The notes under the pieces: model-generated
Databases searched by the model: none
Seen by the model: only the letters and a program-made list of their open reading frames with translations
Told to the model about the DNA's origin: nothing
Position numbers and translations under genes: made by a program
Shown here: in pieces, positions 7,553 through 63,639 of the stretch
Position numbering within the stretch: position 1 is the stretch's first letter
Layout of the letters: the number at the start of each line of letters is the position of its first letter
From: Serendipita indica DSM 11827
Lineage: Eukaryota > Basidiomycota > Agaricomycetes > Sebacinales > Serendipitaceae
DNA length: 64,000 bases
Direction of reading: 5' to 3'
Assembly (NCBI GenBank): GCA_910890315.1
Contig: CAJVGD010000050.1
Coordinates: 124,001-188,000 of the forward strand

Positions 7553-9251
7553 TCACGTTTCTCTGGGCTTTGGCTTGTCGTTTTCAAAATCCCACTTCCT
7601 CTGGAAAGCATTGACAATGTTTCCCGAACCCTGCCGAGGCATCTAGTCGAAATATATTGAGCAAGTAGACTCACATAACGGAATGTGAGCAAGTCAGGCC
7701 TGACTTTGTTGATGGTCATCTTGAGCAATTCTTTGCGCCTTGCAGATCCTAGCGGTTCCCAAACCGGTTCATCTGGCACCAAAAGAGCGATCAAGTCGCC
7801 ACGAGAGATTGTACCTATATCAGGTTTAGTCCTCGCCTCATTTGCTATGCTAGACACCAAGCTCGCATGCTTCAGTCGTTCAAACTCTCGTGAGTTTAGC
7901 GGAAGTACTGGCCCATACTGCACGAGATCAAACTGGAGGAGTATCGTTGCCCAAGCGTTCAAATGAGAAGAGATGGCGCACCAACGTAATATCCATGTAT
8001 GAAACACCACTGGCATCACTGCTTCGCTCGGCCCACAGCACATCATGTACTGGGATCCCCCGCGACTTCTGCCCAGATGTCAGCCGATTTTTTGTCACGT
8101 AAGTTCTTAAGACGTACAAAATTAGAAGAGAATCTCAGGAGTAGAGTACCAATGCCAAAGTGCAGAGGTGAGGGTTTCCCATCGAAGAACCAGTTGTAGT
8201 AGTCCACAGGGATGAGTGCCTGGCTGACTGGTTCGGCATCCATCTTCTCTTGGATTGATGCACGATGGTTCAGCGGAAGTAAATCTGACGCTTTACCAAG
8301 CGCTCGGGAATATATCCGACTACAAGTCGATGCACAATCGCTATAATTCATCAGAGGCGACATAAAGAAAAGGAATTCCAGACATTTCTGTGTTAATTGT
8401 GTTGATCATGGTTGTTTTTGTGTCCTCTAGGACCGAATGGTGAGATTCTATCAAGGGCTGCGCCGTCCTTAGGTGGGGGCTGGAGGCGAAGCAAAGCGAC
8501 GGACTGGTAATTTAGTTTCATACCACTCTTGGAGGCTGCTCGCAGATTTGCGCTGATGGTGCACGCTCAAGCGGTATTCAAGTTCTTATTGCCTGGCTAT
8601 GGTTGTCATATCTGGATGCCTGGCTGGTACTTACCCGATAATGGCATTCGCATCTCCCAGGGCCGCTGCGGGTCTCGGTTCAACCACTCTTTCAGCTCGT
8701 CCGTTGAAGCTAACAGCTTTTTATATTTGTCGTCATGTGTCCTATGTGCATCGTGAAACGCCTGGGAGAGTTTAGAACCGACCAAAAGCTCCTGTAACCT
8801 GTGAATCGCATATCTGACTGAATTAAGCTATCTAACCGTCTTAATAGGGTACTCGGCGATGTTTGGGTTGAGATCCGACGAGCGAGCCCTGATTTCTAGA
8901 TAGGTTGTGTCAGGTATTCTTCTATACAGTGTAGGTCTCACCTTGTTCGAATGCAGTGATGAGTACCCTTGAATACTCTCTGTTTGCCTCCCCCGGCCGT
9001 GGTTTGTGTGTTTCGACCAGTGCGCGTAGCCCATCAACGCTTCATCTCTGCTCAATAGAAGAATCTCATATATTATCGACGTACAACTCTTGCTCCAGTC
9101 GTGCTCTGGACATTTCCCGTCAGTTTCTATGTGAATCCAGATGGAACCAGGCGGACCGCTCGCGCATGAGCTCGTGGGCAAGTGCTAGATCTGCATCTTG
9201 ATCCCTTATTAGTTCTATTGTGCTTCCAATCTCGGGCCAACGGTTGCTCAT
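7553..9251 (-). CDS. Uncharacterised multi-exon protein, family copy A
   Basis: I do not recognise this gene. Comparison with copies B and C gives about 12 exons encoding roughly 360 residues. It starts MSNRWPEIGSTIELI at 9251 and ends WDFENDKPKPRET at a TGA at 7553. Conserved blocks, in order, are LRALVETHKPRPGEANREYS, AFHDAHRTHDDKYKKLLAST, ELEYRLSVHHQR, SDLLPLNHRASIQEKM, VDYYNWFFDGKPSPLHFGIG and VWEPLGSARRKELLKM. Introns of about 43-90 nt sit at the same places in all copies. The first donor, GTCCGC, is weaker than the GTACGC of the other copies. There is no signal peptide or membrane segment, and residues are mostly charged and helical. The shared exon pattern and conservative substitutions argue for a real gene. 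Function is unknown. Confidence 0.6.
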
Positions 9252-9399
9252 GGTCGTGGTAGAGGTTCACGCAGGTTGCCAGCCTCCTATGGGAGCTAAA
9301 GAAGTCATACTGTTATGAATTCCCCGTCAACAATTTGAATTTTGTCAGGGAATTGTGGAGATCATAACTTGACCGCCTCCAACCTTGATTTCTTCCAAG

Positions 9400-11087
9400 A
9401 TGGCGACGACATCAGAAACCCCAGCCCGAAATATTGACGCTGAGATTACAAAATATAAAGTAAGTTTTCAAGTTTCATCCATCTTTCGCCATTCCTCGTC
9501 TTTCACCAGCGCCACCGACACGTTTCTGAAGAGCCCATTTCCTTCTCTCATGAGCTGCTTGTGACAGCTCAGCGCTCAAAAACACATATATTACAAACCA
9601 AGCTTCACTTTCCTCTATCAGTTCTTGGACGAGCCCTAAGATTGACACGATTATCAGGTCGCCGCCGAGATCGTGCATAGTGTGATGCAAAAGCTGGTGG
9701 CTGGTGCCGTGGAAGGCAAAAAGGTCCTTGATCTCGTCATTGAGGGAGACGAGGCATTAGAGGCCGGCGCTGCAGGCGTGTATAATAAAAAGGCAAAGGG
9801 CGCGGCGATACAAAAAGGTACGAATATCTTTCATGCATCTGTATGATTCCTCATTATGTGCAGGTATCGCCTTTCCTACATGCATATCGGTCAACAACGC
9901 CGTGGCGCATTTCTCGCCACTCAAGTATGTTACTCAATGGGAAGAAGCGACTATCTGAACAAGCCGTTTAGATCGGATCCACAATCAGATACCGTTTTGG
10001 CAAAGGGAGACGTGGTCAAGATTCAACTCGGTAAGGGTCGTTGATTCGCCAGAAGTCCCTTCACCAAGACATTTGTAGGGGCCCATATCGACGGATATGC
10101 TGCAACCTCTGCCGAGACCCTGATTGTAGGAGCGACAGAGGATGAGCCTGCCACTGGTCGAGCTGCAGACGTCGGTACGTGCAAAGCGTCCGGCTGGGAA
10201 TATATGAATTGATGAATGAACAGTCAAGGCTGCCTGGACAGCAGCAGAAGCAGCTATGCGCCATCTCAAAGTAGGAGAAAAGAATTATGGCGTTACGGAG
10301 ATTGTGGACAAGGTCACCGCGATCTGGGACTGCAAGCCGGTTGAAAGTGAGAAGAGAGCCTTGGTACCAGAGTAAGACTGACCCCTTTAAGACATGCTTT
10401 CTTGCCAATATGAGCGAAATGTCATTGACGGCAAGAAGAAGATTATCCTGAACCCAGGCGAACAGCAAAGGCGTGATGTCCCCAACGAGACATTTGGAGA
10501 AAACGAGGTGTATGGTATCGATATCCTCGTCGTCAGCGCTGCCGACGGAAAGGCAAGTTACACCCAGGCGTTGATGCAGCACGCTAACAGATTACAGAGC
10601 CGTTCAGAGGACTCGAGATGTACAATCTACCAGCGCGTATCCGATGTCAATTATCAGCTCAAGATGAAAACTTCGCGCGCAGTCTTCTCCGAAGCACAGA
10701 AGAAATCGGGCGCGTTCCCATTCAACATCCGATGCCTCGAAGATGAGAAGAAGGCCCGTATGGGCCTACAAGAGGCAGTTCAGCACGGCCTAGTTCGAGA
10801 GTACCCCATCGCGTACGAAGATTTGTTTCTATTCTGAATCTCCTTCTGATAAAACATAGGTACACTGCTCAAGGTACATATGTTGCCGGATTCACTTCAC
10901 GATCGCCCTACTCCCCGGTGGTCCATCTCTCATCACCCAGCCCCCAATCTGGTACAAGCCGGAGAAGGTGAAGACGGAGAAGGAAGTACAGGATGAGCAA
11001 CTCAAAGAGCTACTCGTCCGCCCACTGAGGGAGAGCAAGAAGGATAAAAAGGCGAAGAAGAAGGCAGAGAAGGAGGATGAGGAATAA
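9400..11087 (+). CDS. EBP1/PA2G4-like (M24 aminopeptidase-fold) protein, one frame break
   Basis: Nine exons, about 387 residues: 9400-9459, 9658-9817, 9864-9924, 9972-10030, 10079-10174, 10224-10346, 10392-10552, 10598-10812 and 10860-11087. The family has a methionine-aminopeptidase fold without catalysis and acts in ribosome biogenesis and growth control. Supporting blocks are FPTCISVNNAVAHFSPL, KIQLGAHIDGYAAT, NETFGENEVYGIDILVVS and LKMKTSRAVFSEAQ, and the C-terminus is a lysine-rich tail (KKDKKAKKKAEKEDEE). The seventh intron (10553-10597) starts GCAAGT, a GC-AG intron. Joined exons total 1163 nt, one short of a multiple of three. The frame is lost between VAGF and TIALLPGG at about 10890-10900. 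Everything on both sides is well conserved, so one base is probably missing from the sequence. Confidence 0.85.
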
Positions 11088-11158
11088 GGACGAGCACAAG
11101 GAATGCATACTTGCTCAATTTCAATGAAGTGAATACACTGAAAGCGCCACTCACCAAC

Positions 11159-11513
11159 TCAAATCGTCGCTGCGTCAGGTCCAAATTCGTCCAGTGTCCG
11201 TATTATCAGCTCGACGTTTTCGAGATAGGCATTCAACGTCAGTCTTGCGAGGCGCACAGTTAATGTTTTGAAGGTTCTGTACCCAACTCTGTGAGCAAAA
11301 CGACTTGAGACACTTGGACTACTCACGCGACAAGTTCGTCACCATCCAATGAGAGATCTCGTTTCACTGCATGAGCTTGTAGCTCCTTGTCCACGCTGAT
11401 GACATCCATAGCAATCTTTGCATGTTCTGGTGAAGTAAACGGGATTCGTATCGTGCTGCATCAATCACTTCAGAAGCAAGTCCGACTGAATCCAAGGCAA
11501 ATTTACACTTCAT
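11159..11513 (-). CDS. PCC1: KEOPS/EKC subunit Pcc1
   Basis: Small CTAG/Pcc1 family protein of 83 residues in three exons (11509-11513, 11327-11455, 11159-11276). The KEOPS complex makes the t6A modification of tRNAs, and Pcc1 is its dimerising subunit; it has also been linked to transcription and telomeres in yeast. The protein begins MNTIRIPFTSPEHAKIAMDV and ends LNAYLENVELIIRTLDEFGP, matching the family at both ends and in length (yeast Pcc1 has 88 residues). The first coding exon holds only 5 nt of CDS. The gene lies head to head with RMI1 (104 bp between starts) and tail to tail with the EBP1-like gene. Confidence 0.87.
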
Positions 11514-11617
11514 GCCAGTCTCTTTGAGACATTCTATCACTTTGGAAGTTGATCGCCGATTTCTTTGCAAGGGTGCGGTGGAAAGTGGCAAAGACCGACT
11601 TTGACCTGCCACCCATC

Positions 11618-12943
11618 ATGGCAAGCGCAAGAGTCACCCGTTGGATCGAGCAACGCTATTCAAGGCCCAAACTAGACCCTGTCAGATTCATCTGAATGGC
11701 CTAATATGCTTGACGTTGACTGATACCTAGTCAAACTCGACAGAACTGGGTCGCCGCATGCGTCGAGTTTCTTGAATCCGAACTTCAATTGAGGGAAAAT
11801 GACACAGAGCAGCTCAGCGAACAGGTCCTTTTGCAACTATTGCAGAGCGACCTTTGCGATTCTGCCATGCGAGATACTGGGTTTCCCAATGGTATTCAGC
11901 AAATGAAGAACGGCATCATCGGCACACGGGCAAGTGGAGGGCCTATTCTGGTACAAATAGTTGCCATTACGGATATCGGAGTCAGTGCTTTCACACTCAA
12001 GAACGTACGGCAATCACGGTTGGACAAGGCAGATATGACCGGATTGACAAAGAGAAAGACCTAGACGAGGAAGGAGCCGATGGAGCACAACCCCCAGGCG
12101 AGGATGAGGACGCGACGATGCCACCATACCCCAGGTCCATGCTCTCCCTGCTCATTAGCGATGGCACGGTGACAATTAAAGCCATAGAAGCGAAACGACT
12201 TGATGGTCTTGTACTGGGCGAAACCCCCCTTGGTTGCAAGGTGCGTGCGAAAGAACGAAAAGTTTTGTTCTGACTGCCTCTCTGCAGTTGCTTCTCACCA
12301 ATGTCAGAGTGAGGAATGGAATAGCCATGCTAGATCCATCGAACACACAAGTAGTCGGATACCAAAGCGACGAACTGCAGGCACACTTTGATATCAACTT
12401 CGTCAAGAGTCTGAGAAGAAGGATGGGGTCAGTCATCGTTGCGCACCTGTTTTGTCGACTAATATCACCAGTCAACCGGAAGAGGATCCAGAAGACGAAA
12501 GACTTGCAGAACAGCAACAGCAGCGTCAGGCTGCTCAGCCAGTCGAAGAGAGATCCCGCGCTCAGGCAGCGCAACGGCCTCCTGCCAATAGCATGCGAAG
12601 TGAACAGCAGCAGCTTGCGGGAGTGCAGCTCTCGGAAACTCTGACGGGTGCAAGGCCAATCGTTCCTCAAACGGTCAACGAAAGCTTTGACGATATGCCT
12701 TCCGAACTAGACGATGATTTCCTGGAACAAATAGACGAGGTAGAACAGAAAGTACTGTCTACCCAGCCCTCGACAACACCAACCAACTCAACAAACCCAA
12801 GTCGAGCTCAATCCAACCGCTTAGCGTCAACCATACAGGAAATCTTCGAGTTGGATTCGTCAGAGGAAGAAAAGGAGAACATCAACAAAAGACGGCCTAG
12901 AGCACCAGTAGTGCAGGTGGAAACAATAGAGCTTTCCGACTAA
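11618..12943 (+). CDS. RMI1: RecQ-mediated genome instability protein 1 (RMI1)
   Basis: OB-fold partner of the RecQ helicase-topoisomerase III complex that dissolves recombination intermediates. Exon 1 gives MASARVTRWIEQRYSRPKLD. The second exon starts at 11744 (NWVAACVEFLESELQ), the N-terminal helical layer of RMI1. ILVQIVAITDIGVSAFTL, YPRSMLSLLISDGTVTIKAI and LVLGETPLGCK then form the OB core, followed by LLLTNVRVRNGIAMLDP. The tail is Gln-rich then acidic and ends VETIELSD. Near 12015-12064 the frame changes. A 50-nt GTACGG...AAAGAG intron restores it and is my preferred model, although the segment it removes also reads as plausible protein, so this junction is uncertain. Confidence 0.82.
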
Positions 12944-13084
12944 TTCTGAACACCACAAATGTCATTGCCTTTGCATGTCTAGCGTATGAACGTACACGGT
13001 CATAATGTATGCCGTTCTTGGGAAGACGGTTGTACAGATTGAAAAAAACAGCACGAATAAAATGTGAAAGAGCGCTTTGCCTCC

Positions 13085-16972
<3,888 letters not shown>

Positions 16973-17094
16973 AGCTAGAGACGTCGGCACCGAATAATTA
17001 ACACGGATTTGTGCTGATACTCGAGCCTTGAAGAGATATTTACGCGCCTCTAAAGGCGTAGGCTGCTACGACGTCGGCACGGTGGAGATTCAAG

Positions 17095-18158
17095 ATGGAC
17101 CGTCAACTTGGACGCCGCCTCTGCGGACTACCACCCAGACTAAACGACCAAATACGAAATAAATCGCGTAAAATGGAGTCTGGTTCTACAAACGAACAGT
17201 CATTGGCGACACAGCAGGAACCTATCGCAAATGCCACGCAACCCACCGACTTCAAGGTCTGGCGCCCGCCCAGGGGCAGTTCTACGAGCAGAATAGCGAC
17301 CAGTATGTCGATTTGCACGCCCGAAATGCTTATATCAACCAGATATTGTGTAGATAACCTCCCAGATTCGTATTTTGAGCCCACTACTGGCGAGATTATG
17401 GCACTTCAGCAATCACGGACTGCGGCACGAGAGAGACTTGTGGACGCACCTTTGCGCACCGCAATGATCAGAGAGCGCGAAGAGAAGCAAAAAGAGTCGA
17501 AATATCCGACGGTAAGCTCTCCCTTGGGCGCCCGAGGCGCGTAGCATACGCGTCGTCCTAACTTGTGCTAGACGACAATACGAGTCAAATTCCCAGACCA
17601 AACTCAACTCGAGCGCGTATTCCCTTCCACCGACAAGATTCGATCAGTCTATGCATTTGTGAGAAACTCACTCAGGGAAGATGTCAAGCCTATCAAATTC
17701 GTACTCTGTATGTCACCTGCTTGGCTTGCCGACCTCTTCTGACTCACCACTTCGCAGATCAAACGCCACCGCGACGGGAGCTCAAAGTGTCGGACTTGGC
17801 CGTGCGCGACAAGACGCTTTATCAACTTCAACTTGCCCCATCTTCAGTCTTGATGCTTTCATTCCTTGACGAATCCCTGAATCGTGCGTTTCCTCTGTTT
17901 GCCTAGACATGAGGTTGACGGCCATCCAGACAAGGACGTCCCTGCACCATTATCAGAAGCAGTGCTGGCTCTGGCGGAAGATCTACCACTTCCACCAGTC
18001 TTCAACGAGACACCGCCATCGGAACCTGCGAGTTCCTCGGTCGGCGGTAGCATTGCAGCGCTGGCAGAAAAGAAGATTCCAAAGTGGCTAAAAGTTGGAA
18101 GTAGGTACTCCTGACAACGTTCTGAGGAAGCATACTTATGATTCTTTCAGAGAAATAG
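17095..18158 (+). CDS. UBX-domain protein of the ASPSCR1/TUG/Ubx4 type
   Basis: Adaptor for the Cdc48/p97 ATPase. The conserved LPDSYFEPTTGEIMALQQS is followed by the UBX beta-grasp domain: TTIRVKFPDQTQLERVFPST, VYAFVRNSLREDVKPIKFVL and TPPRRELKV. The tail ends IPKWLKVGKK. Introns fit well: a 51-nt one ends at 17353, a 46-nt one spans 17884-17929 (joining SLNH to KDVPAPLSEAV), and the last leaves only KK and the stop at 18156-18158. The start at 17095 is the longest option; an ATG at 17173 (MESGSTNEQS) is equally plausible. Neither leaves room for the N-terminal ubiquitin-like domains usual in animal TUG, so this is either a short fungal form or an upstream exon is missing. Confidence 0.8.
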
Positions 18159-18566
18159 TGATTAAGATAAAATTCGTGCAATATCTTTTCGTACAGTCTA
18201 TGATCAGTCTGAGGGGCTCTGCCCGTAATCCGAGAGGGCCCTTGGTCTATATGAAGAGACCATGGTCAAAAACTCGATGCTTGGAATCTGATGTGCTGAA
18301 AGTACAGAACCCCAACGCTCAACCATTGCGTTATGAGCTTTGTCAACACTGTGAAACAATTTTATCCATGCGGACCAGCGGCTGTGGAACATGGGGCTCG
18401 GTGTCCATGAAAGCTCATCTCCCACCTCATTGTCCCTTTTCCATAAGATCGCATCGTTATCTTTTGGACTGTAATTCATCCACGCATAACCAAACGAAGT
18501 CTTTGTAGTTGTCCGTTGGCTTCGGAGCATATTCGCGTCGCTGCCAACTCTTCTTCCATGGAGTTA
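18159..18566. other. Intergenic, between convergent gene ends
   Basis: This stretch lies between the UBX gene stop and the F-box gene stop. It holds only unsupported short open frames on both strands. It is probably 3' UTR of both neighbours. Confidence 0.5.
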
Positions 18567-19541
18567 TCACTCCAATGTTTCTGGTTGATTATGAGCTCCC
18601 TCAGTCGAGGGAGCTTCTGGATGAGCCGCCCGATACAGCGTAATTCGTTCTGGTCTGGTGTCAGTTCTTGTCAGTGAATAACAATCATATACACATACCT
18701 CGCGTTCGGCTTCGATATAAGACCAGAAACCAATGCTCAGAGTCGCAACGCAAGGGATTGAAGCCGCTAGCTCGTCCAGTTGCTGATACGCTTCATCAAT
18801 ATCAACATTCCCATTCAACTGGATACGACAGCTCAGATACGACAAAGTCGTACTCGAGTTTATTATCGTACCAATCAAATCTGGGATGGAAACATAAGAG
18901 ATGACCTGCAAGGAGGCCAGATTGACTTGCTTGATGATGGACGCTGTTGGTTGAGTTGTGAGGTCTTTAGTCGTGATGTGTTGGAGATATTTGAATGGGA
19001 GTTGCATGTCTGCAAAGTCTAGCGTCTTGTCGTCTGCATAAACGCCGCGCAACTCAAACGTCTGCAGCAGGACCGCGTTCTCCAGTAGGAAGCGTAGAAG
19101 CGTATTGAACTTGCTTTGATTGCCGTTGACGGACACGGGGTAGTCCACGATGACGAGCCGCTTCACATGGGCAATGTGACGCTTTTGGCAGAGTAGACCA
19201 CCGAGTACTCCAAGCTTGTGTTGAAAAGCCTTGTTGCTTTTTATTTTGGAAACGAGGTCTTCAGCGGTTCCAACTGGTAGCTTTGACAAAATGCCAGTCC
19301 AGCGATTGCCCAACAAGTAGGCAGATTCATAGAATCTACGCAGTCCTACGGCGTAGAATACCCTATTAGTTCTCATGAGAGACAGTACGTCACGAGTTTG
19401 GGAGTATTCTGCTACTTCTTGCAATACCTCTGTCGGCAGAGACAAGACCGTCACCGCAGCATCTGGTTTCGCTGGTGGAATCTGAGGCTCATGGTAGTCC
19501 TCTGTGGGCAAGGCGTCGAGCAGATCCCGAAAGTCGTCCAT
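18567..19541 (-). CDS. F-box protein
   Basis: A single-exon open frame of 324 residues starting MDDFRDLLDALPTEDYHEPQ at 19541. An F-box-like segment (LSLPTEVLQEVAEYSQTRDV, then LSLMRTNRVFYAVGLRRFYE) occupies about residues 33-72. The rest is Leu-rich and irregular, as in Agaricomycete F-box/LRR-like proteins, where the F-box recruits SKP1-cullin ubiquitin ligases and the rest binds substrate. No specific target can be inferred. A short intron near residue 285 is possible (donor GTATGT, acceptor ACACCAG), which would change the last 40 residues. A TATAAAA-like box lies about 68 bp upstream. Confidence 0.7.
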   Translation of the reverse strand: MDDFRDLLDALPTEDYHEPQIPPAKPDAAVTVLSLPTEVLQEVAEYSQTRDVLSLMRTNRVFYAVGLRRFYESAYLLGNRWTGILSKLPVGTAEDLVSKIKSNKAFQHKLGVLGGLLCQKRHIAHVKRLVIVDYPVSVNGNQSKFNTLLRFLLENAVLLQTFELRGVYADDKTLDFADMQLPFKYLQHITTKDLTTQPTASIIKQVNLASLQVISYVSIPDLIGTIINSSTTLSYLSCRIQLNGNVDIDEAYQQLDELAASIPCVATLSIGFWSYIEAEREVCVYDCYSLTRTDTRPERITLYRAAHPEAPSTEGAHNQPETLE

Positions 19542-19608
19542 GACCGGTCAACCCGGTAAAGGTCGAGGCCAAGGTTGGTGCTCTAACGCTGAGCTCCTCA
19601 AGCGAGGG

Positions 19609-19615
19609 TTTTATA
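19609..19615 (-). promoter_or_regulatory. TATA box of the F-box gene
   Basis: TATAAAA on the minus strand about 68 bp upstream of the ATG at 19541. This is a usual distance for a fungal TATA element. Confidence 0.5.
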
Positions 19616-19697
19616 AGTTCCGGATCCGGCGTTTGCACTAAGTCATAATAGGCGCGTTAGACGCGTAAATTTTTTCAGTGGGCGTCAATTCTAGGAG

Positions 19698-30654: not shown

Positions 30655-30707
30655 TCTCCATTTTGAAAGTGGTGTAGGATTAGCAGGATTGTGTACGAAT
30701 AACATGA

Positions 30708-33357: not shown

Positions 33358-33380
33358 GAACCCGACCGCAACCAGTCACG

Positions 33381-44973: not shown

Positions 44974-45241
44974 AATGACGAGTCTGGATCTTCTGCGTGG
45001 TGAGTTTATACTTTTTGTGCTCACTATGCGGTTTTATTGATTGTTGATAGCTCTTTCTTTAAACAGTTGTACCAGAACGACTATTGGAGATAAAATTCTC
45101 TGTTCGATGTTGGTCGCCTCACTACTATACTACTTTTCGGTCATCCATGTGCACCCTCTTGTATGTTCCGCCTCGGAACATTGCTGTAACCAATAAACGC
45201 TTTTTTGCATCAATACGTCTGTGCATCAAATCCCCAGGTTT

Positions 45242-45697: not shown

Positions 45698-45840
45698 TTT
45701 AGTCTCTTCTCCTGGATTCTATTCTCGAGAAGTTCATATATTGGCTGGTTTGGCTGGCTCCAAAGTGAGTCTGTTGATTCAATCAACAAAAAACTTGAAC
45801 TCTGCCACCGCCATCTGTCCTTCAACTCGCGTCCACGACA

Positions 45841-47835: not shown

Positions 47836-47894
47836 GCTATTATATGTATGTACTCTAATATAGATATTACGAGCGCGAGGGGATATCGTAAAAA

Positions 47895-50606: not shown

Positions 50607-53600
50607 ATGCGAATTATACCCACAGATGTACCCACAAGCCCTGTAGAGTCTAGCGCAAAGTCGGTGCGCTCGACCAAGTCTTCCAAGTACAAGGAATACG
50701 ACGTGCGTCGCTTATTCTTCTGCCATTAATTTCGCTTATGCCTCATCGCCTATTAGATATTCCGCCGTTGGGATGACTGTCTAGACTTTCAGCGCACGCT
50801 CGAGGGCGAATATCAGTTCATCGCCCAGCGACGACGAAAGGGTCAGCCTGCTTTGGATCACCATGCCAAAAACACCCTTTACCCAGCTCAACGGGCCGCC
50901 TCTTTTGACTCTCTACCGGTTTGTACACGTCCTTGTTGTGTTGGCCGTATGGTACTCATTCAGCCTGCCAATAGGCCGGCCCTGATCCCAGTTCGATCGC
51001 TCTCGACGTGCACGAGTACATTCCCAAGTTGACCAAAAAGTCCAATCTCTTTCGTGCCAATCACAGCACCGTCTCTCAACGCGGTGAAGAGTTCAAGGCA
51101 ATGATCAACGCGTTGCTCGACGAGGACGCCCACTCGACCATTCGCGAGTTGCGGACGGTACCTATTGTCCGGGACTTTTTTGCCTTATGGCGAAGGGACA
51201 AGGAAGCCGAGCGCAGGAGCGCAAAGACAGCCTCCATTACCTCTCCGCCTTTACCCGGGGCCCCAACTGCACCCACCGTCGTGCCTGTGGTCAATACTCC
51301 CCCGCCGCCGGCCCCCGTACTCGCTCCCAAGTCGGGTCCAGCGCAGTCGACTCCTCAAAGATCACCGACATTGAACCATTTAGCAGATTTCCTGCACACC
51401 CCGGTCACTTCAGTTCCGAAATCACCCAAGCCTGCAGGAAGGAATTCATATGCGACTCCACGCGGTAACATACGACCGAGCACGGCAAATGTCGAATTAT
51501 ATCCATCCAACAGACCACCGGCATCCCTATTCTTGGCAACCTCTGACGCCGCTCCTGGACCATCCACACCTGCAGTTAATGCGGCCAACTCGATACCCGC
51601 GGCAGCTTCGCGGTTTTCCCGAAGTCAAACGCTACCCGTCCCTAATCAGCCTGTAGATCCATTGGATCCTGTTTCCGATGCGGGACTCCGCGCACGAGAG
51701 GGATTAATGCTACGCCCCTTGGCTAGGGAAGATCCATCGTCACAATGGGGAGGATTATCTCGTCCCCCACTTCGAAAGGGGTCCAGTCCAGAGCTTGCGA
51801 GACCATCGACGGCAACCGGAGGAGAGCGGGCGAGAACTCGGGACTATGCTTCCCCGCATCGGCTTCAGGACAACTGGCAAGGTTTCAGCGGTGGAGGGTT
51901 GCAACCAATGCCCATTCATCGTCTTGCACAAAGACAACCCTCGCTGCCAGGGTTGCCTCGAAAAGCCACGCTAAGGGAGAGTCCCTCTGTCGAAGGCGGA
52001 CTTGCGGGGGATGCTCTCAAGCCACTTACATCGTTTCCATTTGATCATCCTCCCGAGTCGCCTGGCTCACCTGGTGTCGCTGTTCCGGCGGCTGGTCGAA
52101 GGAGACTCGACTCGTTGGCTGTGTTGGACCCAGAGATGTATCAAACCCTGGCCTCTCAAGGTCAGGCTATGCAATCGTCACCATCACTATTGCAATTTGG
52201 ACGGTCCCCGTCTATCGGTCATGACACTTCTCAGGTCATCCCACGCGCCCGCAAGACACCCCCCATCCAGGACAGCGGAAACAGGAGTGCGCGTTTCTTC
52301 GTAGATGATCCAAATGGAAATCTTCTCGTTGATGTCGCCAATGGACCGCCTCCTCGGTCTCCCATCTCGGCGGGCATGGGCTCACTCACGTTGGACCCCG
52401 AAATGGGCCGGGTGCGCAAAAATTCGACACATTCTCATGAGAGTGACGAGGGCCAATTTGGGCAAATCGCAAGAGAGAGGTCGGTTCAGAATACGCGCCT
52501 TATTGGCCGACCACCGCCTGGGAAACAACCAATAATGCGTCCGCCTCCCACCGCGCCACTTCCGCCAACGAATGCGAACGTGGACCTAAGATCAGGACGG
52601 AGTGCAGAGGAGCGCGCGTATAACCTGTCCATCATCTCGGGAGCGTCTATTCCCACCCTCTCGTCGAATGCCAGCTCCTCGTCCTTCTCTCAGGCCTCGC
52701 CGCTTTCTCCTACGGCAATGCCCGCCTCTCGCTTTCGGTCACGAGCGTCGATGAGCTCATTGGGAGATCAGCAGCAGCGTCGCTTGTCGCTCGATTCGCT
52801 CATGATGAGTGATGTCGAATTGCCGTACCTGTCGAGGAACCTATCCAACACCCAAAATCACTATTCGCTTAAGAATAAGTCGTCGGATGCCGTATTTGCA
52901 GCGCATAATGCTGTCAACGGGAATGGACCAGCCTCGGCTACGCCTACACCACGAACGTTTGGAGCTGCAAATATTGCAATCGGTGTGGGTGGCGGACGAG
53001 GGTCGTATTCGAGCCAGGATACGGATAGTACTGGGCTAAACGAGGACTCGGGTGCTCTATCATCCGCATCATCCATCCACGCGCCCGCACCTTCGCGTCT
53101 GCATCCACCCACCAAGGCCATCATTGTCTCCAAGACGACCCCTCCGCCTCCTCGCCCACCAAGATCCGCGCTTCGCAATTCGAGCCAGTTTGCTACGGGT
53201 GTGTTGCAGCGATTGGAAGAGACGAGCAATGGCGATTCGAGTGGCTCGCGTCCGCAGACTCCTTTCAACAATTTGCACAAGCAAGAGTCGCATGAGTTTA
53301 TCGATAGCTATTTCCTGACGCCGCAACTTCAGCCCACGACGCTTGACCCACCTGTCGCGCCGTTTGCGATGAGCAACAGGAATACGCGCGACTCGAACAT
53401 GTCGACGTTTTCCAATATTGCACAGTATTACCAATCGCTTCCTGAACGGCCATACGTCCCAGGTGTGCCAGCACAGGAACGACCGGGTGCTGCGGATCAT
53501 CCTCCAAGCGACTTTGAGGCCATGTCTCTGCCGCCCACGCCATTTTCGACCACATTTTTGGATTTGACGGCGCACAACAACGTGCCTACTCTGGCCCCAC

Positions 53601-53962
53601 GCACGTCGTCGCAAACTGTTTCGGGAATGGTCCCCATCAAGGCCGTTCACGCGCAGTCGGAGACGATTGTGCTCTTCAAGATTACCAAGGGGGACACATC
53701 TCTTAGCGACTTGCGTGCCAAGACTCTGCGCAAGCTCCGCGAGGCGGGTATCCCGGGCGAAAGCCTGGAAAGCGTTTCGCTCAAGTATCTCCCGTCAACT
53801 CGGAGTGGAGACTCGGCTCCGTTTGTTGGTCGGCAACGCTCCATGTCCATTGCGTCTGCGGCGGACATTGCCCAAATGGTGGACCTCGACAGCGAGGTTG
53901 AGTGGCAAAAGGCGCTTGCGACGGCAAACCCCGCACAAAAAATTCTTATTCGCGTCATTTAA
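50607..53962 (+). CDS. Large disordered protein with a C-terminal PB1-like domain
   Basis: Starts MRIIPTDVPTSPVESSAKS at 50607. A conserved N-terminal region spans three exons: IFRRWDDCLDFQRTLEGEYQ, DVHEYIPKLTKKSNLFRANH, EEFKAMINALLDEDAHSTIR and VPIVRDFFALWRRDKEAE. About 750 residues of Pro/Ser/Arg-rich sequence follow. The last ~110 residues (ETIVLFKITKGDTSLSDLRA, SLKYLPSTRSGD, VDLDSEVEWQKAL, KILIRVI) resemble a PB1 domain, with an LKY strand and an acidic DLDSE in the place of the OPCA motif. PB1 domains pair with other PB1 proteins in polarity and NADPH-oxidase signalling. I cannot assign a family name. Confidence 0.6.
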
Positions 53963-54512
53963 AAATTGACCAGTGTTGTACCAAAGTTCAACATGGCTCC
54001 ATGCACTAGGATGCAAGTCTCGCAACAGACTGCACTCGGTGCCCTTCTCGTCTCTCCGTGATTAAAGACAATCGTCTATCTGGATTAACGTCTTAACCCC
54101 CTCCTACTGGATCTCACCGGATGCAATCTTTCTCGAGTCGATCCCTTACGAACTCCAATCTCGTCACTCGTCTGTGCGTTTGTACCACTTCAACGATCAT
54201 TATCTCCAATAGACAAAGCCAACTTTGAATATACCTATGTAACGAAGACAATTATTTTCTATTCGCCCCAAACAGCTTGACTGCATCGCTTTGAGGGAAA
54301 ATATCAATGAACGAGCATGACATGAACAGCCAGCGCTATGTGATATCATAACAGGTGCGCTCTGGAATGCGCGAGATGGCCAGCCGCAGGCCACGAGGTT
54401 TGTGCGCTGCGCCGCTCGTGTTGTCGATATAACCGCGCTTCGAGGGACATCTCGATCTACCATCGCGTCCTGATCTCGTCGCACCTCTACATACCTCTCT
54501 CACACGACCAGA
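53963..54512. other. Intergenic, nothing recognised
   Basis: About 550 bp between the PB1-like gene and the HSP20-like gene. There are no supported frames longer than fragments. It is likely 3' UTR followed by the HSP20-like promoter. Confidence 0.5.
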
Positions 54513-55469
54513 ATGCTCCGCTCAGCCCTCGACAAGCCCATCATCAGCTGGGAAGAGTTTGACCGCATCTTCAACGAGGCCTTTAACCCATCCGGTGTCC
54601 CTGCCAAATCCAGCGTTAGTCATGATGGTCTCGGCGTCGTCTCGAGCGTAGACGAAAAGGAAAAGCACAAGCGCGAGGATAGTCTCGCGTCGACGAACAC
54701 CGTGTTCTCGACCATTCCGCGCGCGGCGAGTCCAGAGCCCATCTTATCCGACGCGTCGTTGGATGCAGATTCGTTTGCGGGGTTCATCAGCGAAGAGGAG
54801 ATCCCAAAGATCTATACGCCACTCGCATTCCCGACCACCTTTCCCAAGGTTGGACGTAAAGAGTCGTCGGATAGTTTGCGTTCAGAGACCAAGGCGAGTA
54901 GCGTCTTGTCGTCGTCTGTACCGCCAAAGTCGGTCGTATTTCCGAAGCGCCCGCGGGTCATGTCAAATCAGATTTCGTCGAGGCGGACGATCTCATCTGC
55001 GGGGAGTGTACCGCGTGTGAAGAGGACAAAGACCAAGCCTCGGTAAGTACATTTCATTTTTCCGAAAGAAAGGGGAGTGCTGATGTTTTGGCTGGATGTG
55101 TAGAGTGCAGATGCAGACGACCCCTGATGGCTCTACGACAACCGTGATCGACGTACCGGATATTCTCAAAGACTCTATCAACGTCGACTTTCATCATAGC
55201 CATCTCGTGGTGACTTGGCGAACGGCGACGGTGACGGAGCAAATTCTGCGCGACTCGATGGTGAGGGAGAAGAAGGAGAAGCGGTACACTCAGACCATCA
55301 TGTGAGTTATTCTTGGAGTAGAGATAGTGTGTGATATTGATGTTCGAATAGTGTACCAGAAGGGACCAAATACGAGGATGTCCGGGCCACTCTGAAGCGC
55401 AGTCAATTGACGATCAGCTTCCCTTCGAATCCAAAACTATCCGAGTCTCAGAAGACGTCCTCTCCATGA
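54513..55469 (+). CDS. HSP20/alpha-crystallin-like domain protein
   Basis: Starts MLRSALDKPIISWEEFDRIF at 54513. Residues 1-175 are Ser-rich and disordered, with basic clusters (VKRTKTKPR). Two further exons encode an HSP20-like fold: DIKDSINVDFHHSHLVV-type strands (actual DILKDSINVDFHHSHLVVTW), then EQILRDSMVREKKEKRYTQT and VPEGTKYEDVRATLKRSQLT, ending in ISFPSN. VPEGxxxEDVxAxLxxxxLTI is the typical end of a small heat-shock domain. The long N-terminal extension is unlike canonical small heat-shock proteins, so it may be a divergent regulatory member. Stop at 55467-55469. Confidence 0.6.
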
Positions 55470-55541
55470 GGGATACCACTTACGTTTATTCCTTTACTCC
55501 TTCCGCTGTGCATTTTCTTTATCCATTTTGTTGTATGTATA

Positions 55542-56724
55542 TCATTGATGGAACCCTACTTGTAGACTCATTCGAGCCATCTGAGCCACCGTTTCGCGTG
55601 GTAGTCCAAGCCCCAATGGCGGTGCCGCGAGAAGGAGGGCATACTCCTCGACCAGCGAATTGCGGAAAACCAAGGTATCATCCGTCTAATGGAGATGATG
55701 AGATGGCGCGATATAGATCAGGATAACGTACGCATATGGCAATTGGGAGCCCGTTACTCAACCACCATGAAATGTGATGTTCCGCTATTGTCTCGACTGT
55801 CTTGCACAGCAGATTGGACGACAGACAGATCTCCACTGCCATGGTCTCCTTGTGATTGAGGACGACTGAAAGTGATTCCTCGTGCAGAAAGGTGGCATGA
55901 CCCAGGCGTGCGGGCTTTGCGGAGAGTAAAGTCATTGTGTCTTCCTCTGTGTTTTCCTTTGTCTGTGGCCGTACTCAGAGTCATAAGCGAGCAATAAGGT
56001 AGCTTACCTCGGCAATATGCAGCGTGAGCTTGAGCCCGTTCTCCCTAGCGTATTCGAATGCGGCCAGAAAGTCATCTGCCTTCCCAGCCTGGGAATATGA
56101 GCAACGCTTGACCCTTTCAAAAGCACTTACCATCGGGGTACCACATAGGTCAACTCCAACCACTCTGCGGCCAGCTTCTCTCAATGATATTGCGAGCTTC
56201 ACGTTCTCCATCATGATACCTGGCGACATTCTTCGATCCAGGCTGATGATAAGATTACACTTATCTTTGTCGTACTTCTCCACCTCGTCGAGAACAGTCT
56301 CCAGGTACTCCCGCTTGCTCATAAAGGAGCTCTCGCGCGGAGTCGTGCGCAGCTCGAGATATGTGCACTGGGCAGGTTCGCCTGCACCCAACGACCCAGG
56401 CTCAAGAAACTGTGCAATAGTTGCACGCGTTGCCTTCTTGAGAGCATCCGGAGTGGAAGTAATTGCATATATCGCCGGGAAGAGATCAAAGAACTCGTTG
56501 ATCTCGTTCAATACAACCCCTTGTTCCAGAATCTTGAGCCCTTTTGCTACTGCGCCGTCTGAACCACTCGTGATCTCAGGATGTTGGTTTACTAGCTCTT
56601 GGAGGCATTCCAGAGGTATACATCCGTTGAGGTGGGCGTGTAACTCTGCTTTGGGCAACGCTTTGATGAAGTCGACGTCTTCGGTGCTCAAGGATGCGAG
56701 GGCTTCTCCACCAAAGTCGTGCAT
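55542..56724 (-). CDS. ADAL: ADAL-type adenosine/N6-methyl-AMP deaminase
   Basis: Metal-dependent amidohydrolase. ADAL (MAPDA) removes N6-methylamine from N6-methyl-AMP produced by RNA turnover. Starts MHDFGGEALASLSTEDVDFI. Metal and catalytic residues are visible: the HxH motif in LPKAELHAHLNGC, His and Glu in LKLTLHIAE, and the DD pair in ICTDDTLVF. Family-specific strings are CTYLELRTTPRESSFMSKRE, LIISLDRRM and EICLSSNLLCKTVETIAEHH. The end (QMARMSLQVGFHQ) runs to a TGA at 55542-55544. Two introns separate HIAE from TKENTEED and AIC from TDD. The DNA is convergent with the HSP20-like gene (72 bp). Confidence 0.87.
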
Positions 56725-57110
56725 CTGCGAATGCGAGTCGAGCCCCGGTATGGCTAGACGTGGCTACTCTCCAAGGTGAGTTTCGACCAATGGGCCCAGC
56801 GCCACTCGTCCGAGTCAGATCAGGCTTGGCGGTGACTAAGGCGAGGGGAAAGGTCATCAATCTAATATTGGTTGACTTCAGCAAGTGAGCGTACGACATA
56901 GTCCCAGGGTGAACTATATTATCCAAACCATCACTGAACCTCGTATATCGCATTACCATGGATTGCTTTGTTGGGACAAAACTCGACCACACCCCTTCGG
57001 TGGTGGCATTCCAGTCAGCACTCAGCTCGCGGTTTCAGCGAAAGGTGATATGATTCAAAATAGATGCAAATAACTTATGGATAGACGGCGAACTCCTTGA
57101 AACGTTTCCT
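56725..57110. other. Intergenic, nothing recognised
   Basis: 386 bp between the ADAL start and the SDR stop. It holds only short shadow frames and is presumably the ADAL promoter plus the SDR 3' UTR. Confidence 0.5.
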
Positions 57111-58074
57111 TTACTCGAGTTGTGCGCGAGAGACAATATGATCCCAAACCTTCTCTGTCACCTTGTCGTTGATGCTGTTCCCCAGTGTGAGCTTGTCCGC
57201 ATCCTTCGTAAGCCAAAAGCCTCCCTGACTATAGTACGGGTGAAGCAACGGATAAAGCATCGAAGACGCGGCATCTTCCAGTCTCCGAAGTAGAGGTTTT
57301 GCGAGAGTAGCCGCAAGACTCAGGTACCACGTTTTATGCAGACCTGGCATGTCAGTACCTCCAGGAAAGATGTGGATAAACGCCAAGTCCGGATGGCGTT
57401 CGCCCATGACCTAGAAAGCTCATTAGTGAGATATCCCTGTGAATGGATAATGAAGTCTGACTTTGACGAAGACGTCATTATACGACGCGGTTGTTTTGTT
57501 CACGCTTATCATAGAGAATTTCTTGATGTCCAGATCTTCGAGGTCGACCTTGTTGCTCGTGGCGGCATTGAGGATAATCATTGCTCGTGCATCCTCACCG
57601 GCAGCCCTGTCATTGGAGAGCAGTGGCTGAAGTTCGTAAATGAACTTGGTGCGGGCGTATGTCCGGAGCACATGCGACTCGTCAAGTCCTTCGGTTGTTA
57701 TCTTTTGCGACATTGCAAGAGCCCCGGCACTGCATACGAGCATATTGATCTTGCTGTACCGCTTCTTGATCTCTTCGACGGCAACTCGCACGTTGGATAT
57801 GAACGACACATCGCACTGGATGAACTCGTGTTTGACTGTGATGCTATTTGTCTCGTTCGGAGAGGATGGCTCGGGGAAAGATGCAACGATGCGGTCTGCA
57901 GCGGCCTGGTTTCGTCCGACGATGACAATGTTCGCTCTTCCGTTGGTATAGGTCGCTAAGAGTTTTGCCATAGTCTGACCAATCCCAGAAGTTCCTCCCG
58001 CGAACACGGCCGTAGGAATGTAGCCAAAAGGTGACCGCCTCGTTGAAGGCCTTGATAGTGGAAGGCGATGGCAT
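57111..58074 (-). CDS. Short-chain dehydrogenase/reductase, one frame break
   Basis: NAD(P)-dependent SDR of Rossmann fold. The coenzyme motif is VFAGGTSGIGQTMAKLL, followed by ANIVIVGRNQAAADRIV, FIQCDVSFISNVRVAVEEI, LVCSAGALAM, and an active-site stretch NKTTASYNDVFVK. The last exon has LAFIHIFPGGTDMPGL. The start MPSPSTIKAFNEAV at 58074 fits basidiomycete homologues, but between this N-terminus and GYIPTAVFAGG the frame shifts by one base at a run of four A (58026-58029; T on the coding strand). Three would keep the fr ame open, and there is no intron to explain it. It is either a homopolymer error or a recent inactivation. The substrate is unknown. Confidence 0.75.
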
Positions 58075-58575
58075 GGTATTGAGTGTTAGAATGGGTTTGA
58101 AAAGAAATCGAAGAGCTGTAGAAGTTGGATTATCGACCAGCAAACCATCTCGACCTATTTATGCCCGGAGATGGGAAGCTCGGGAAGCCTGAGGGCGAGG
58201 CTAAGGCTGGGAGTGATCATTCAAGCAGTAACCTCCGGCCCAATTTACCGCAGTAAGAGGCATTGTCGCGCTGATTCGCATGCTACACCTTGGTTTATAA
58301 TCTATGTATCCGCAGCTGATGACTTTGAAAGATAACAGCGGCCACTACGAGGTAATGACGGTTGTAGAGACTGTACTTGAGCAGGAAACAGCGCTTGACA
58401 CTCTGCAATATTTTTGAGGGTCGACATCCGTCGGGTCCAAGTTGCGTTTTCACCCAGGAAACTTTGCTTTACGCTATAAACTGTTTCATGTATATTGATT
58501 CAGTGATGATAACAATTGTAAGACACTTTGTGGTGTCGGCTTTAACTTAGACCTGATGAGGACCAGCTTTGACAA
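58075..58575. other. Shared upstream region of the SDR and APC10 genes
   Basis: About 500 bp between divergent starts. A CATAAATAG element on the minus strand near 58153-58162 is a candidate TATA box for the SDR gene. Nothing else was recognised. Confidence 0.45.
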
Positions 58576-59361
58576 ATGCAGCGCGGACATATAAACCCAG
58601 GGGCGTCAGAACAAGCATGGGCTGTCTATCCAGACATTGGGAACCTCGCGCGATGGTCTGTCTCAAGCTGGAAGTACGGCTTTGGACTCGAATGCTTGCG
58701 AGATAACAATCCGGATACGTTCTGGCAGTAGGTCACTTCTCTTTTGTGATTTCATATTCTGACTCAGTGTAGCTCTGAAGGCAATCAGCCACACTCGATT
58801 ACGCTGGAGTTTCCGAAACGCGTCGCTGTCCAAGTACGGGCATAACTATCGCTTACATGCTCTCATGATGAAAAATAGAAGATCATAGTTCATCTGGATC
58901 AGAAAAAGGACGACTCGTACACGCCAGAGATCATCGGCATCCGCGCCGGAACAAGCTTACGTGACTTGCAAGATGTCCGACAAGTCAACTTTGACAAGCC
59001 GAGTGGATGGGTTGCATTTGATGTGACGAACGATTTGGCAGAGGACGGTCAGACTTTGTGAGCAGCTCCTTTTCCCCTTGTCGAGTTTTGTTCTCACCAG
59101 CTTTGCTCCCGACTCCTATGCGAGAATAGTAAACCGCTGTACGCGTATGTCGTTCAATTGGTCATTATTTCAAACTACATGAACGGCAAAGACACACATA
59201 TCCGTGGTCTCAAGATTGTCGGACCACTGGAGTAGGTTTACTCATGATCCATGCTCGCGCGTAATTGCAACTGATCCACTGACAGGGAGCCACTGTTGGA
59301 TGACACTGAAGTCTTTCCGTTTGTCAGTCCCGAGTTTAAGATGTACGAGACCATACGATAG
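58576..59361 (+). CDS. DOC1: Anaphase-promoting complex subunit APC10/Doc1
   Basis: Processivity factor and D-box co-receptor of the APC/C ubiquitin ligase. Starts MQRGHINPGASEQAWAVYPD at 58576. The DOC-homology domain shows IGNLARWSVSSWKYGFGLEC, LRDNNPDTFWHSEGNQPHSI, VAVQKIIVHLDQKKDDSYTP, GIRAGTSLRDLQDVRQVNF and VVQLVIISNYMNGKDTHIRG. The protein ends KMYETIR, so the C-terminal Ile-Arg (IR) tail that docks into the TPR subunits APC3/Cdc27 is present. The four introns are short. Stop at 59359-59361. Confidence 0.93.
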
Positions 59362-59886
59362 CTTGGACTATCCATTTAAGAACGTAAATGCAACCACGTT
59401 CACTCTATATGATACAATATGTTGTTGGCACCTGAAAGGTTATCGAACCTAGCTCGCCGAGCGCTCGAGCGAAGTCAGATAATCCCAGGTGAAATTGACT
59501 GGGGCCTATGAGGCATATAGTACTGTTCGAGACAATTATTGGCAGAATCTTTCCAGTCCATGGTGCCTAACAGGTGCATTGTTGATCCGCAATTGAGTCA
59601 ATTAATCAACAGAACTTTTAAGCGGAAATAGGATTCTGAACCAACAAAGCCACCTATTAATGAAAGCCAAACTAAAGAACCTAACACGTCGTGTTTCCTT
59701 TCCATCACCTCTATTCCACTCGTACTCTGCATCTTGTCAATGACTTGGCTGTTCGTTTATATCTATATCTAGTCCCCGTGTAATATATCTTTTCTCTCGA
59801 TCATTCAAGCTTGTGTGTGAGAGTACCGCGCCTATCCCTTCAGCTGCTGCGGAGGCCGACAACATGCTTAAACCTCTACCACGACC
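59362..59886. other. Intergenic plus conserved upstream block of copy B
   Basis: No gene seen. The last ~50 bp (about 59835-59886) resembles the sequence just before the ATG of copies A and C, ending in the shared TACCACGACC. It is probably promoter or 5' UTR of copy B. Confidence 0.5.
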
Positions 59887-61639
59887 ATGAATAATACCCG
59901 GTGGCCAGAGATTGGAAGTACGACGGAGCTGATGAGGGCTCAAAATTCAGATCTATCACTCGTTTGCGAGCTCATGCGGGAGCGGTACGCCGAGTTCTAT
60001 TGTGATTAGTATCGCATTAATAGGTGAATATCCAGAGCAAGACTGGAGCAAGAATTGTACGTCACTCATATTTTGTTCACTATACATCTATTTAAGAGAG
60101 ATAAAGCGTTAATGGCCTACGCGCATTGGTCCAAAAACACAAACCACGGGCTGAAGGCGAAAACAGGCAGTACTCAAAGGTGCTCATCGATGCATTCGAA
60201 CAAGGTGAGAGGGCTAATTGGTATCCAAAAGTGCGTAAAACATCTGTCTAGAAATCGAGGTTCGCTCGGGTCCCAATCCGAACATGCCCGAGCACATCGC
60301 GTTAGAGGAGAAGGTGCAATACCCAATTACCAAAAATCACGACTAAGAGACTATTCAGGAGCTGTCGGTCTGTTCGGAACTCGCACAGGTGCTGTATAAT
60401 GCACACGCGACACACGACGACAAATATACAAGGCTATTGGCTTCTACGGGTGAACTCAAAGAGTGGTGGAACAAACAGTGGCACCAAAAGTCGCCCGAGG
60501 GGATGCGAATGCCATTTGTGGGTGAGTGTTGCCCAATCACCAAGATATGACAAGCATAACCAGATATCGAGAACTCGAATATCGCCTAAGTGTGCACCAT
60601 CAACGCACATCCGCGAGGAACCTGAAGGGGTGGTATGAAGTCAAATTACCGGTAGGTCACCGTAAGCGACTTTTCGACTCTAGTTCTATCTGAGGTTTGC
60701 TCAGCCACTGGTGGAATCTCTCCATTCGGCCCTAGAGGACACGAAAGCAATCATGATCAACACAATAAATACCATAATGTTTGTAAATTCTCTTTCCATG
60801 ACGCAGTCTCATCAAATGTAGCGATCGTGCATCAACATGTAGTCGGATTTATTCCCGCGCGCTTGGTAGAGCATCCGATTTACTCCCATTAAACTACCGT
60901 GCATCAATCCAAGGAAAGATGGATCTAGAACTAGTCAGCGAGGCACTCGTCCCGGTGGCCTATTACAACCATTTCTTCGAAGGACGGAGCTTGCCTCTGC
61001 ATTTTGGCACAGGCACTCTTTCTCTCACTTTCCCGGCGCCTTATTCTGTGTGTCCTAAAGATTTGCATGAACCAATTGACTGACCATCTCTGCGAAAGTT
61101 GCGTGAGCCGGATCCACAAGAGTTATTGCAAGCCGAACGGAGTAACGACTTCACGTGGGTCTCTTCTGAAGCTGTCACTCTGGTGCGTTCCTTCTTCTTG
61201 GTCCATAGTTGGTGGTAATACATCTCCAGTTTGAAATTGTGCAATACGGCCCCCTTCTTCCCTTCAACTCGCGAGAGTTTCAACTCTTTAAAACAATCAC
61301 CGGAAATCGAAAATCTATCAGCTTGGTATTCTTTACAGTAAATTGAACAAAGCCTAAACTTGGTATAGCGAACATATCTCGGCGTGAATTAACCGCATTT
61401 TCAAAGCCGGATTCATCAGTCTGGGAACCCCTAGGATCTCCGAGGCGCAAGGAACTTCTCAAGATGGCCATTGGAAAAGTGGATCCACGGTGGCTCACGT
61501 TCCGTGAGGTGAGTATCGAGTCTACTTGCTCAATCTGATTCGATAATTGATGCCTGATCAGGATTCTGAGGACATTGTGGCTGCTTTCATAAGGAAATGG
61601 GATATTGAAAACGACAAGCCAAAGCCCAAAGGAAAGTAA
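59887..61639 (+). CDS. Uncharacterised multi-exon protein, family copy B
   Basis: Paralogue of copy A, same exon plan. Starts MNNTRWPEIGSTTELMRAQN at 59887 and ends WDIENDKPKPKGK at a TAA at 61637-61639. Shared blocks include GLRALVQKHKPRAEGENRQY, SKVLIDAFEQEIEVRS, AHATHDDKYTRLLASTGELK, ELEYRLSVHHQRTS, SDLLPLNYRASIQGKM, VAYYNHFFEGRSLPLHFGTG and VWEPLGSPRRKELLKMAIGK. After HFGTG the donor is GCACTC where A and C have GTACTC, so this intron would be GC-AG or spliced poorly. Otherwise the frame can be followed from start to stop, and most differences from copy A are conservative. No known domain. Confidence 0.55.
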
Positions 61640-62152
61640 CCAAAAATGATACGTCAAATTATCAAGTATGACGAGAGACTGGCAAGCTTTCATGGGAGAT
61701 GAGCCACATAGTATAGAGGAACAATGTATTGGATGAAACCTTCAATGCCCCATCAACTCTGTGTTGAGCCTAAGTGAGCCAGCAAATGATACGAATTGTC
61801 ACGAACATTGTCCTGAATCGTCACGAATCTTCACGAGGTGAACAGTCACTCATACCTGTGTCACGAATAGTCACGGATTGTCACGAATTGTCGCAGATTG
61901 TCATGAATTGTCACGATCTTCCACGAGGTTTCCAAGTCAAGCCTGTATTTTTGTCCGAGTAGGCAGCCCAAACACGTGTAATGACCACTTTCTTCGTCCA
62001 TTGCCCTTCTTCTGCATGTATAGATAGCATTTATATGCAAGTACACGGGTCTCATCCTTCAAATGAAAGTACCGCATCTGTCCTCCGTATATGTACCTTC
62101 TTGCAGGAGCTGTGGTGGAGGCTGATGACTTGCTTGACTCTTTACCACGACC
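61640..62152. other. Spacer between copies B and C
   Basis: The first part (to about 61700) matches the 3' flank of copy A. The middle holds the 10-bp-period repeat listed separately. The last ~50 bp matches the block upstream of the other family ATGs. No gene was seen. Confidence 0.55.
61793..61928. repeat. 10-bp-period minisatellite, consensus TCACGAATTG
   Basis: From 61861 to 61920 six units of exactly 10 bp follow one another (TCACGAATAG, TCACGGATTG, TCACGAATTG, TCGCAGATTG, TCATGAATTG, TCACGATCTT). A second run of about four units lies at 61793-61838, and the two runs are separated by a degenerate stretch. The array sits between two tandem gene copies. Confidence 0.85.
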
Positions 62153-63639
62153 ATGAGTATCCGTTTACCAGAAATTGGGGCACAGTAGAACTGCTGATGT
62201 CTCAAGATGCGGACCAGGCACTTGCCCACGTTCTCATGCGCGAGCGGTACGCCTAGTTTTGTTAGGATCCGTAGACTAATTGTGTGGATTCCCAGAGCAA
62301 GATTGGAGAAAGTGTTGTACGCTAATAGTAGTGCAAAAGAGATCCATCTATTTAACAAGGAGGAAGTGTTGATGGGCTATCATGCATATACAACACATGA
62401 AAGCAAATATACAAAGCTAGCGGTTCAGAGAACGAGATAAAGGAATGGTTAAGCATGCAGTGGAAGTTGCCCTTTGAATGGCGAATGTCATTATTAGGTA
62501 GTTATGCCTAGTCATAATGACAAGCATGAGCAGATGTCGAGAACTCGAATACCGCCTAAGCGTACATCATCAGCGCATATCTGCGGGGTCTCTGCGGCAG
62601 TGCTGTGAAGACGAGCTACCCGTACGTTATACTTTGCCTCCATTTCTATCCGAGATCGAGAACTGCACAGCGACTCATGGAATCTCACCATTCGTCCCTG
62701 GAGGACACGAAAGCAATCATGATCACCACAATAAATGACATAATGTTTGTGACTCCTCTATTCTTATGCTCAGTTTCATGAAACAATAGCGATCGTGGAT
62801 CAACATGCAGTCGATTGTATTCCTGTACATTTAGCAAAGCGTCAGATTTACTTCCGTTGAATCATCGCGCATCACTTCAGGAGAAGATGGATCCAGAATT
62901 GGTCAGCCAGGCAATCATTCCAGTGGACTACTACAACTGGTTCTTTGATGGGCAGCCCTCGCCTCTGCGCTTCGGCATAGGTACTCTTTTCCTTCGATGT
63001 TAGGTGGAAGTCTGTGCGTTTTGGGAAGTGGCCTGAAGCAAATTGACTAACCATCTCTAAAAAAGGTGTTTTGGCCGGATCGACAAGAGATGATGCAAGC
63101 CGAGTGGTGGAATGTCCTCGATGGGAGTTGCCCTAGACATGTCACTCTGGTGCGCCATTTCTTCCTAGTTAGCAATTTGGGATAATACCCTTCCAGTTTG
63201 AACTGGCCCAATATGGTCACTGCTTCCACTAAACTCACAAGAGTATGAACGACTCAAGTCCGCCAGTTTGGTATCCACTACAGCAATGGGACGAAGACTG
63301 AGACATAATATAGAGGAAATCTCTCGGCATGACTTGATCGCCCTCATGGTACCAGACGGGCCGATTTGGGAACCCCTAGGATCTTCCAGGCGCAAAGAAC
63401 TGCTCAAGATGGCCATCGACAGAGTGGACCCATATTGGCTTACACTTTGCTTGGCTAGTCTACTTGCTAAAGTTTTTCACTACTAGATGCTTTAGGAGAA
63501 TTCGGAAAACATCGTGGAAGCTGTTTTGCGGAAATGGGATCTCGAGACGGACAGGCCAAAACCCCGAGAAAAGCAATCCAGAGCGACATGCCGAATTCTG
63601 CGGAGTGGTGGGACGGAACGACTTGGACAAGATACTTGA
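62153..63639 (+). pseudogene. Family copy C, internally deleted and frame-broken
   Basis: Third member of the copy A/B family, in direct tandem with B. It keeps the position of the start codon (62153), the exon starting ELEYRLSVHHQRIS, the exon with SDLLPLNHRASLQEKMDPEL and DYYNWFFDGQPSPLRFGIG, and the final exon (ENSENIVEAVLRKWDLETDR). Relative to A and B, exon 1 lacks one base after PEIG. The region of exons 3-4 (HKPR...FEQEI) is absent. The KLLAST exon and the QYGP exon are each shifted by one base. The last exon reads through the stop used in A and B to a TGA at 63637. Intron positions elsewhere are kept, so this is decay after duplication rather than retroposition. Confidence 0.6.

Follow-up and report, generated by a model that had tools for sequence, protein, structure and literature searches.

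The 64,000-nucleotide window analysed here (C48:124001-188000, in a genome of 24.7 Mb and 55 contigs) holds several similar, intron-rich stretches, and the question they raise is whether these are real genes and, if so, what kind of protein they might encode. An earlier note had described them as a three-copy family with a 12-exon plan and without a recognisable domain.

Gene models and extent of the family

Gene models were obtained from a protein-to-DNA spliced alignment written in Python and fitted to the protein of copy A, and the window copies were verified by a coordinate check. Copy A (7553..9251, minus strand) consists of 12 exons plus stop codon, at 9157-9251, 9085-9105, 8942-9039, 8853-8895, 8635-8813, 8505-8584, 8384-8457, 8118-8340, 7982-8068, 7863-7932, 7675-7814 and 7556-7630, and encodes 395 aa without any lesion. 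Copy B (59887..61639, plus strand) is likewise free of lesions, with 12 exons plus stop codon (59887-59984, 60036-60056, 60107-60204, 60252-60313, 60359-60521, 60572-60651, 60705-60778, 60822-61047, 61099-61182, 61230-61320, 61369-61508 and 61562-61636) and 404 aa. Both genes have 11 introns of about 50 nt, their open frames comprise 395 and 404 codons, and the two proteins are 64% identical. The starts, stops and 12 exons proposed earlier for both copies were thus reproduced, and the blocks VWEPLGSxRRKELLKM and YYNxFFxGxxxPLHFGxG, quoted at that time as conserved, are largely kept across nine members. A GG donor used in a hand splice of A was discarded, as the spliced alignment placed a GT donor four bases upstream. 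The introns of A and B had been reported to share places and phases, which is generally the case; the exceptions are intron 4, which differs between them in both place and phase, and intron 8, which lies one codon apart in A numbering.

The third copy in the window does not conform to the plan of about 12 exons that had been described for it. Copy C (62153..63573, extending to ~63.6 kb, plus strand) is decayed: spliced alignment and coordinate check give a 9-exon model with three frame breaks, the region of exons 3-5 is absent, and there is no stop at the family position, so that the frame runs beyond it.

A family size of three also proved too low. With the DNA of copy A as query, at least 21 matching stretches were found in the genome's contigs, and a protein search returned at least 81 matching pieces in the same 24.7 Mb. 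These correspond to at least 13 places, namely 10 distinct loci plus three places that repeat B or C almost exactly, all of these counts being lower bounds by the search tool's own note. Seven places are on contig C48 (A, B and C inside the window, and G, F, E and D at ~87-118 kb), and two each on contigs C49, C6 and C1. Both C49 places (L014) and one at the end of C6 (L016) repeat B or C (window 59887-63640) with very low divergence (dN 0.013 for B and B2, 0.005 for C and C2, 0.023 for C and C3) and were not counted as loci, which leaves the 10 distinct ones. The second copies of B and C possibly represent haplotype contigs or assembly overlap, which may involve C48, C49 and the end of C6. 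B2 has five frame breaks where B has none, and either this copy is decaying or contig C49 carries errors. A further weak match (C1:1675508, E 0.044) was dropped, since its frame is of low complexity and lacks the FCH motif described below, and a search with the J protein did not return it.

Twelve exons and 11 introns were modelled for each of A, B, D, E, F, G, H, I, J and B2, and the 12-exon plan is thus common to nine of the 10 distinct loci. Introns are 39-57 nt long; the outliers are two introns of H (34 and 94 nt), one of F (81 nt) and one of G (142 nt), where these three models are less sure. Positions and phases agree across the models except at introns 4, 8 and 10. Among copies, intron 4 is displaced by a few codons and also changes phase (the stretch in H is uncertain, as model versions disagree, and alignment A4 takes the earlier version), intron 8 is likewise displaced by a few codons, with phase 1 in I, and at intron 10 the exceptions are D, with phase 2 and one codon further on, and F, with a different donor.

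Selection on the exons and splicing of intron 10

Do these stretches evolve as protein-coding sequence? With the final models, Nei-Gojobori dN/dS values of 0.11-0.41 (median 0.28) were obtained for 44 of the 45 pairs of the ten loci, dS being saturated in the remaining pair; fitting the models to the protein of A can lower these values a little. The values are 0.27 for A and B (bootstrap range 0.20-0.37 with earlier models), 0.22 for A and C, and 0.24 for B and C, and the pair A-B is therefore not near 1. In a DNA alignment of nine loci, with C left out, differences at codon positions 1, 2 and 3 amount to 0.263, 0.236 and 0.427, those at fourfold sites to 0.466, in introns to 0.459 and at splice-site bases to 0.183, and gaps make up 2% of exons and 15.8% of introns. 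The introns thus change at the fourfold rate, the first two codon positions are constrained, and dN/dS is far below 1, which supports the proposal that the family is real, codes for protein and is under purifying selection. An apparently unusual conservation of the introns (74-78% identity) was an artefact of permissive gap scoring, as the common alignment gives 0.459; in this alignment, matched introns are 61% identical and mismatched ones 54%.

That the stretches are no genes at all, but a non-coding repeat in dispersed copies or a family that is dead throughout, would agree with the lesions that are present in five of the ten loci (C, E, F, G and I), but it is hard to reconcile with coding-type substitutions, introns at the fourfold rate and constrained splice sites; also, only 13 places, as a lower bound, were found in 24.7 Mb. 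Dispersed non-coding repeats had been named earlier as an alternative, and no such pattern was seen. We regard this explanation as very improbable, and consider it near certain that the exons evolve as protein and that the gene family is real.

The exon count depends on intron 10 (7815..7862 in A, minus strand; 61321..61368 in B, plus strand), in both copies a GC-AG intron of 48 nt in phase 1. Models with 11 exons, in which a 43-nt stretch of exon 10 is coding, were rejected, as they interrupt B by a stop codon, and I and J by frame breaks. Across nine loci, the 43-nt stretch has a dN/dS of 0.89, as compared with 0.21 and 0.25 in its flanks; it contains a CTNA-like branch motif, which is typical of fungal introns, and ends with AG. 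With a donor five bases further upstream, the frame is kept across intron 10 at phase 1, and splicing clears the sole in-frame stop of B as well as a frame break in I and another in J. Among nine loci, identity in the interior of intron 10 is 63%, similar to the 54-64% of other introns. The 12-exon count is therefore right, because intron 10 is recognised as spliced, with GC-AG in A and B. The donor is GC in A, B, E and I, and GT in C, G, H and J, and the family thus represents a case in which paralogues use GC or GT donors at the same site.

The N-terminus and a possible F-BAR ancestry

The sole recurrent domain signal comes from the N-terminus. Eight of nine members match the Pfam FCH profile (PF00611), with a best E of 3.4e-4 and all below the 27.8-bit cut-off; A itself reaches only a sub-threshold E of 0.042, for an FCH-like segment at about residues 27-55, encoded in exons 1-3 (8942..9251, minus strand). 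When N-termini were searched in isolation, four of five matched (E 4.1e-4 to 4.9e-3) and that of J did not, and the matches are collinear, residues 26-69 falling on profile positions 20-69; as they come from related members, they are not independent. None of ten decoys (reversed or shuffled N-termini) matched FCH, and one reversed decoy reached 4.7e-3 against another helical family, a value as good as that of the N-terminus of A in isolation; this puts the FCH margin at about tenfold for the best member and at nil for A. A profile–profile comparison with six F-BAR sequences, which had been taken from search outputs, aligned only a 24-column FCH core (P 0.035, probability 1.5%). Sequence likeness over the whole F-BAR helical region of ~270 residues was not found, as there were only these 24 columns, and PDB sequence searches with the family returned no F-BAR chain and a best E of 0.12.

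An FCH profile search of the genome found two exons above the cut-off, on contigs C44 and C1. The protein of the C44 gene (L024) matches Imp2 (5e-36) and Cdc15 (5e-32) in the PDB, and this gene has a phase 2 intron in the last Arg codon of WRER/AAIE (the slash marks the intron), which is the codon and phase of intron 1 of the family (in A, 9106..9156, minus strand, in the Arg codon of MRER/ARLE). By a rough estimate, with 11 introns in ~1185 nt, the chance of such an exact coincidence is ~1%. We take the shared intron to be the best single sign of a common ancestry with the F-BAR gene that the sequence offers, at one site. The C1 gene (L023), which is presumably Bzz1-like, shares the RERA-type FCH motif with the family but has no intron at this site.

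The likeness to F-BAR proteins of the Cdc15/Imp2/Hof1 type, including the C44 gene, thus consists of the FCH-like segment with its RERA-type motif and, for the C44 gene of this genome, of intron 1 in the same Arg codon of RER/A at phase 2. The differences are that family proteins have ~395 aa from 12 short exons, with no likeness found past the FCH core, and that the family has ten loci, whereas the C44 protein as query found only its own gene. A C-terminal SH3 domain is typical of Cdc15/Imp2-type F-BAR proteins; no SH3 was among the Pfam matches of the nine family members (E up to 10, a range in which HMMER filters discard the majority of matches with E above 0.1).

The remaining ~330 residues, past residue ~70, matched nothing in Pfam or PDB searches. 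A RhoGAP-like tail was considered and dropped, as no RhoGAP was among the matches of the nine members, and DUF3074 (three of nine members, best E 0.021), NCBIfam matches in single members (best E 0.023) and PDB matches at E 0.12 or worse were taken as chance. Viral and prokaryotic collections gave 144 and 78 pattern matches with no relative among them, and exon-only AlphaFold models were too poor for use (mean pLDDT 62.7 and 59.7). In the part of the openly licensed literature that was covered, we found no account of such a family and nothing that pairs F-BAR with Agaricomycetes. The assessment that there is no recognisable domain hence applies to these ~330 residues; for the N-terminus it has to be qualified by the repeated sub-threshold FCH/F-BAR signal and by the intron common with an F-BAR gene.

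These observations leave considerable room for an orphan helical family of real genes that is unrelated to F-BAR and functions elsewhere, in which the FCH likeness arose by convergence and the intron site is coincidental. The sub-threshold FCH scores throughout, decoys within about tenfold, the weak profile–profile comparison and the missing matches beyond residue ~70 agree with it, and we give it a substantial probability that falls somewhat short of an even chance, as it has to treat the intron 1 codon and phase shared with the C44 F-BAR gene as that ~1% coincidence and does not account for repeated FCH matches at collinear positions.

Putative function and turnover of the copies

We read the family as a divergent F-BAR-like one, and it is the F-BAR part of this reading that is evenly balanced. 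Its real, intron-rich genes have multiplied within one genome by duplication, mostly as a loose cluster, and with the decay of some copies this represents birth-and-death turnover. The protein of ~395 aa would begin with a divergent FCH/F-BAR helix that has a common ancestry with a Cdc15/Imp2-type F-BAR gene. Its N-terminal two thirds might form an F-BAR-like helical dimer on the membrane, the C-terminal part of ~130 residues might bind a partner, and the protein could act as an adaptor where cells divide or where endocytosis takes place, or could modulate the ordinary F-BAR protein. A role as an F-BAR-like membrane adaptor with an additional C-terminal part stands, as a prediction, at about even odds. 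We are more doubtful, and consider it rather unlikely, that the family constitutes a new short F-BAR-like class without SH3, which descends from an F-BAR gene of the cytokinesis type, has acquired a C-terminal region unrelated to it and is being amplified by duplication within a single fungal lineage, and whose members may pair or compete with the ordinary F-BAR protein. If the F-BAR link is true, a module of membranes and cytokinesis that normally exists in few copies has become a family that multiplies and is perhaps specific to one lineage, and a protein that would otherwise be an orphan gains a testable function; even without this link, birth-and-death evolution is cleanly exemplified by the ten loci.

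Five of the ten loci (A, B, D, H and J) are free of lesions; E, G and I have one each, F has two and C three. As the dN/dS of the broken copies is still low, this suggests that their lesions are recent. In the tree of the ten loci, long tips are joined by short inner branches. A fast-turnover conflict family of any fold, for example in allorecognition or drive, in which selection on variety governs the gain and loss of copies, would be expected to have such clustered and partly broken copies and such a near-star tree with long tips, but dN/dS values of 0.11-0.41 give overall no sign of diversifying selection, and there is no conflict-type domain among the Pfam matches; we judge this explanation to be improbable.

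In the surroundings, a Pfam search covered 10 of the 76 stop-to-stop frames that have 130 codons or more. Six of these had a family at E ≤0.001 (MOZ/SAS, class II tRNA synthetase, actin, adenosine deaminase, short-chain dehydrogenase and F-box, the last below its cut-off) and four had none, and the cluster is placed among what are, by these predicted products, ordinary genes. A short tandem array of TGTCACGAAT-type units lies between copies B and C (window 61859-61916). The copies resemble one another over the ~20 nt that precede the ATG (e.g. window 59840-59886 and 9252-9300), an in-frame stop was seen by eye six codons upstream of the start in eight of ten loci, and several copies have a TTGCAG-like site ~60 nt upstream of the start, perhaps belonging to a 5' UTR intron.
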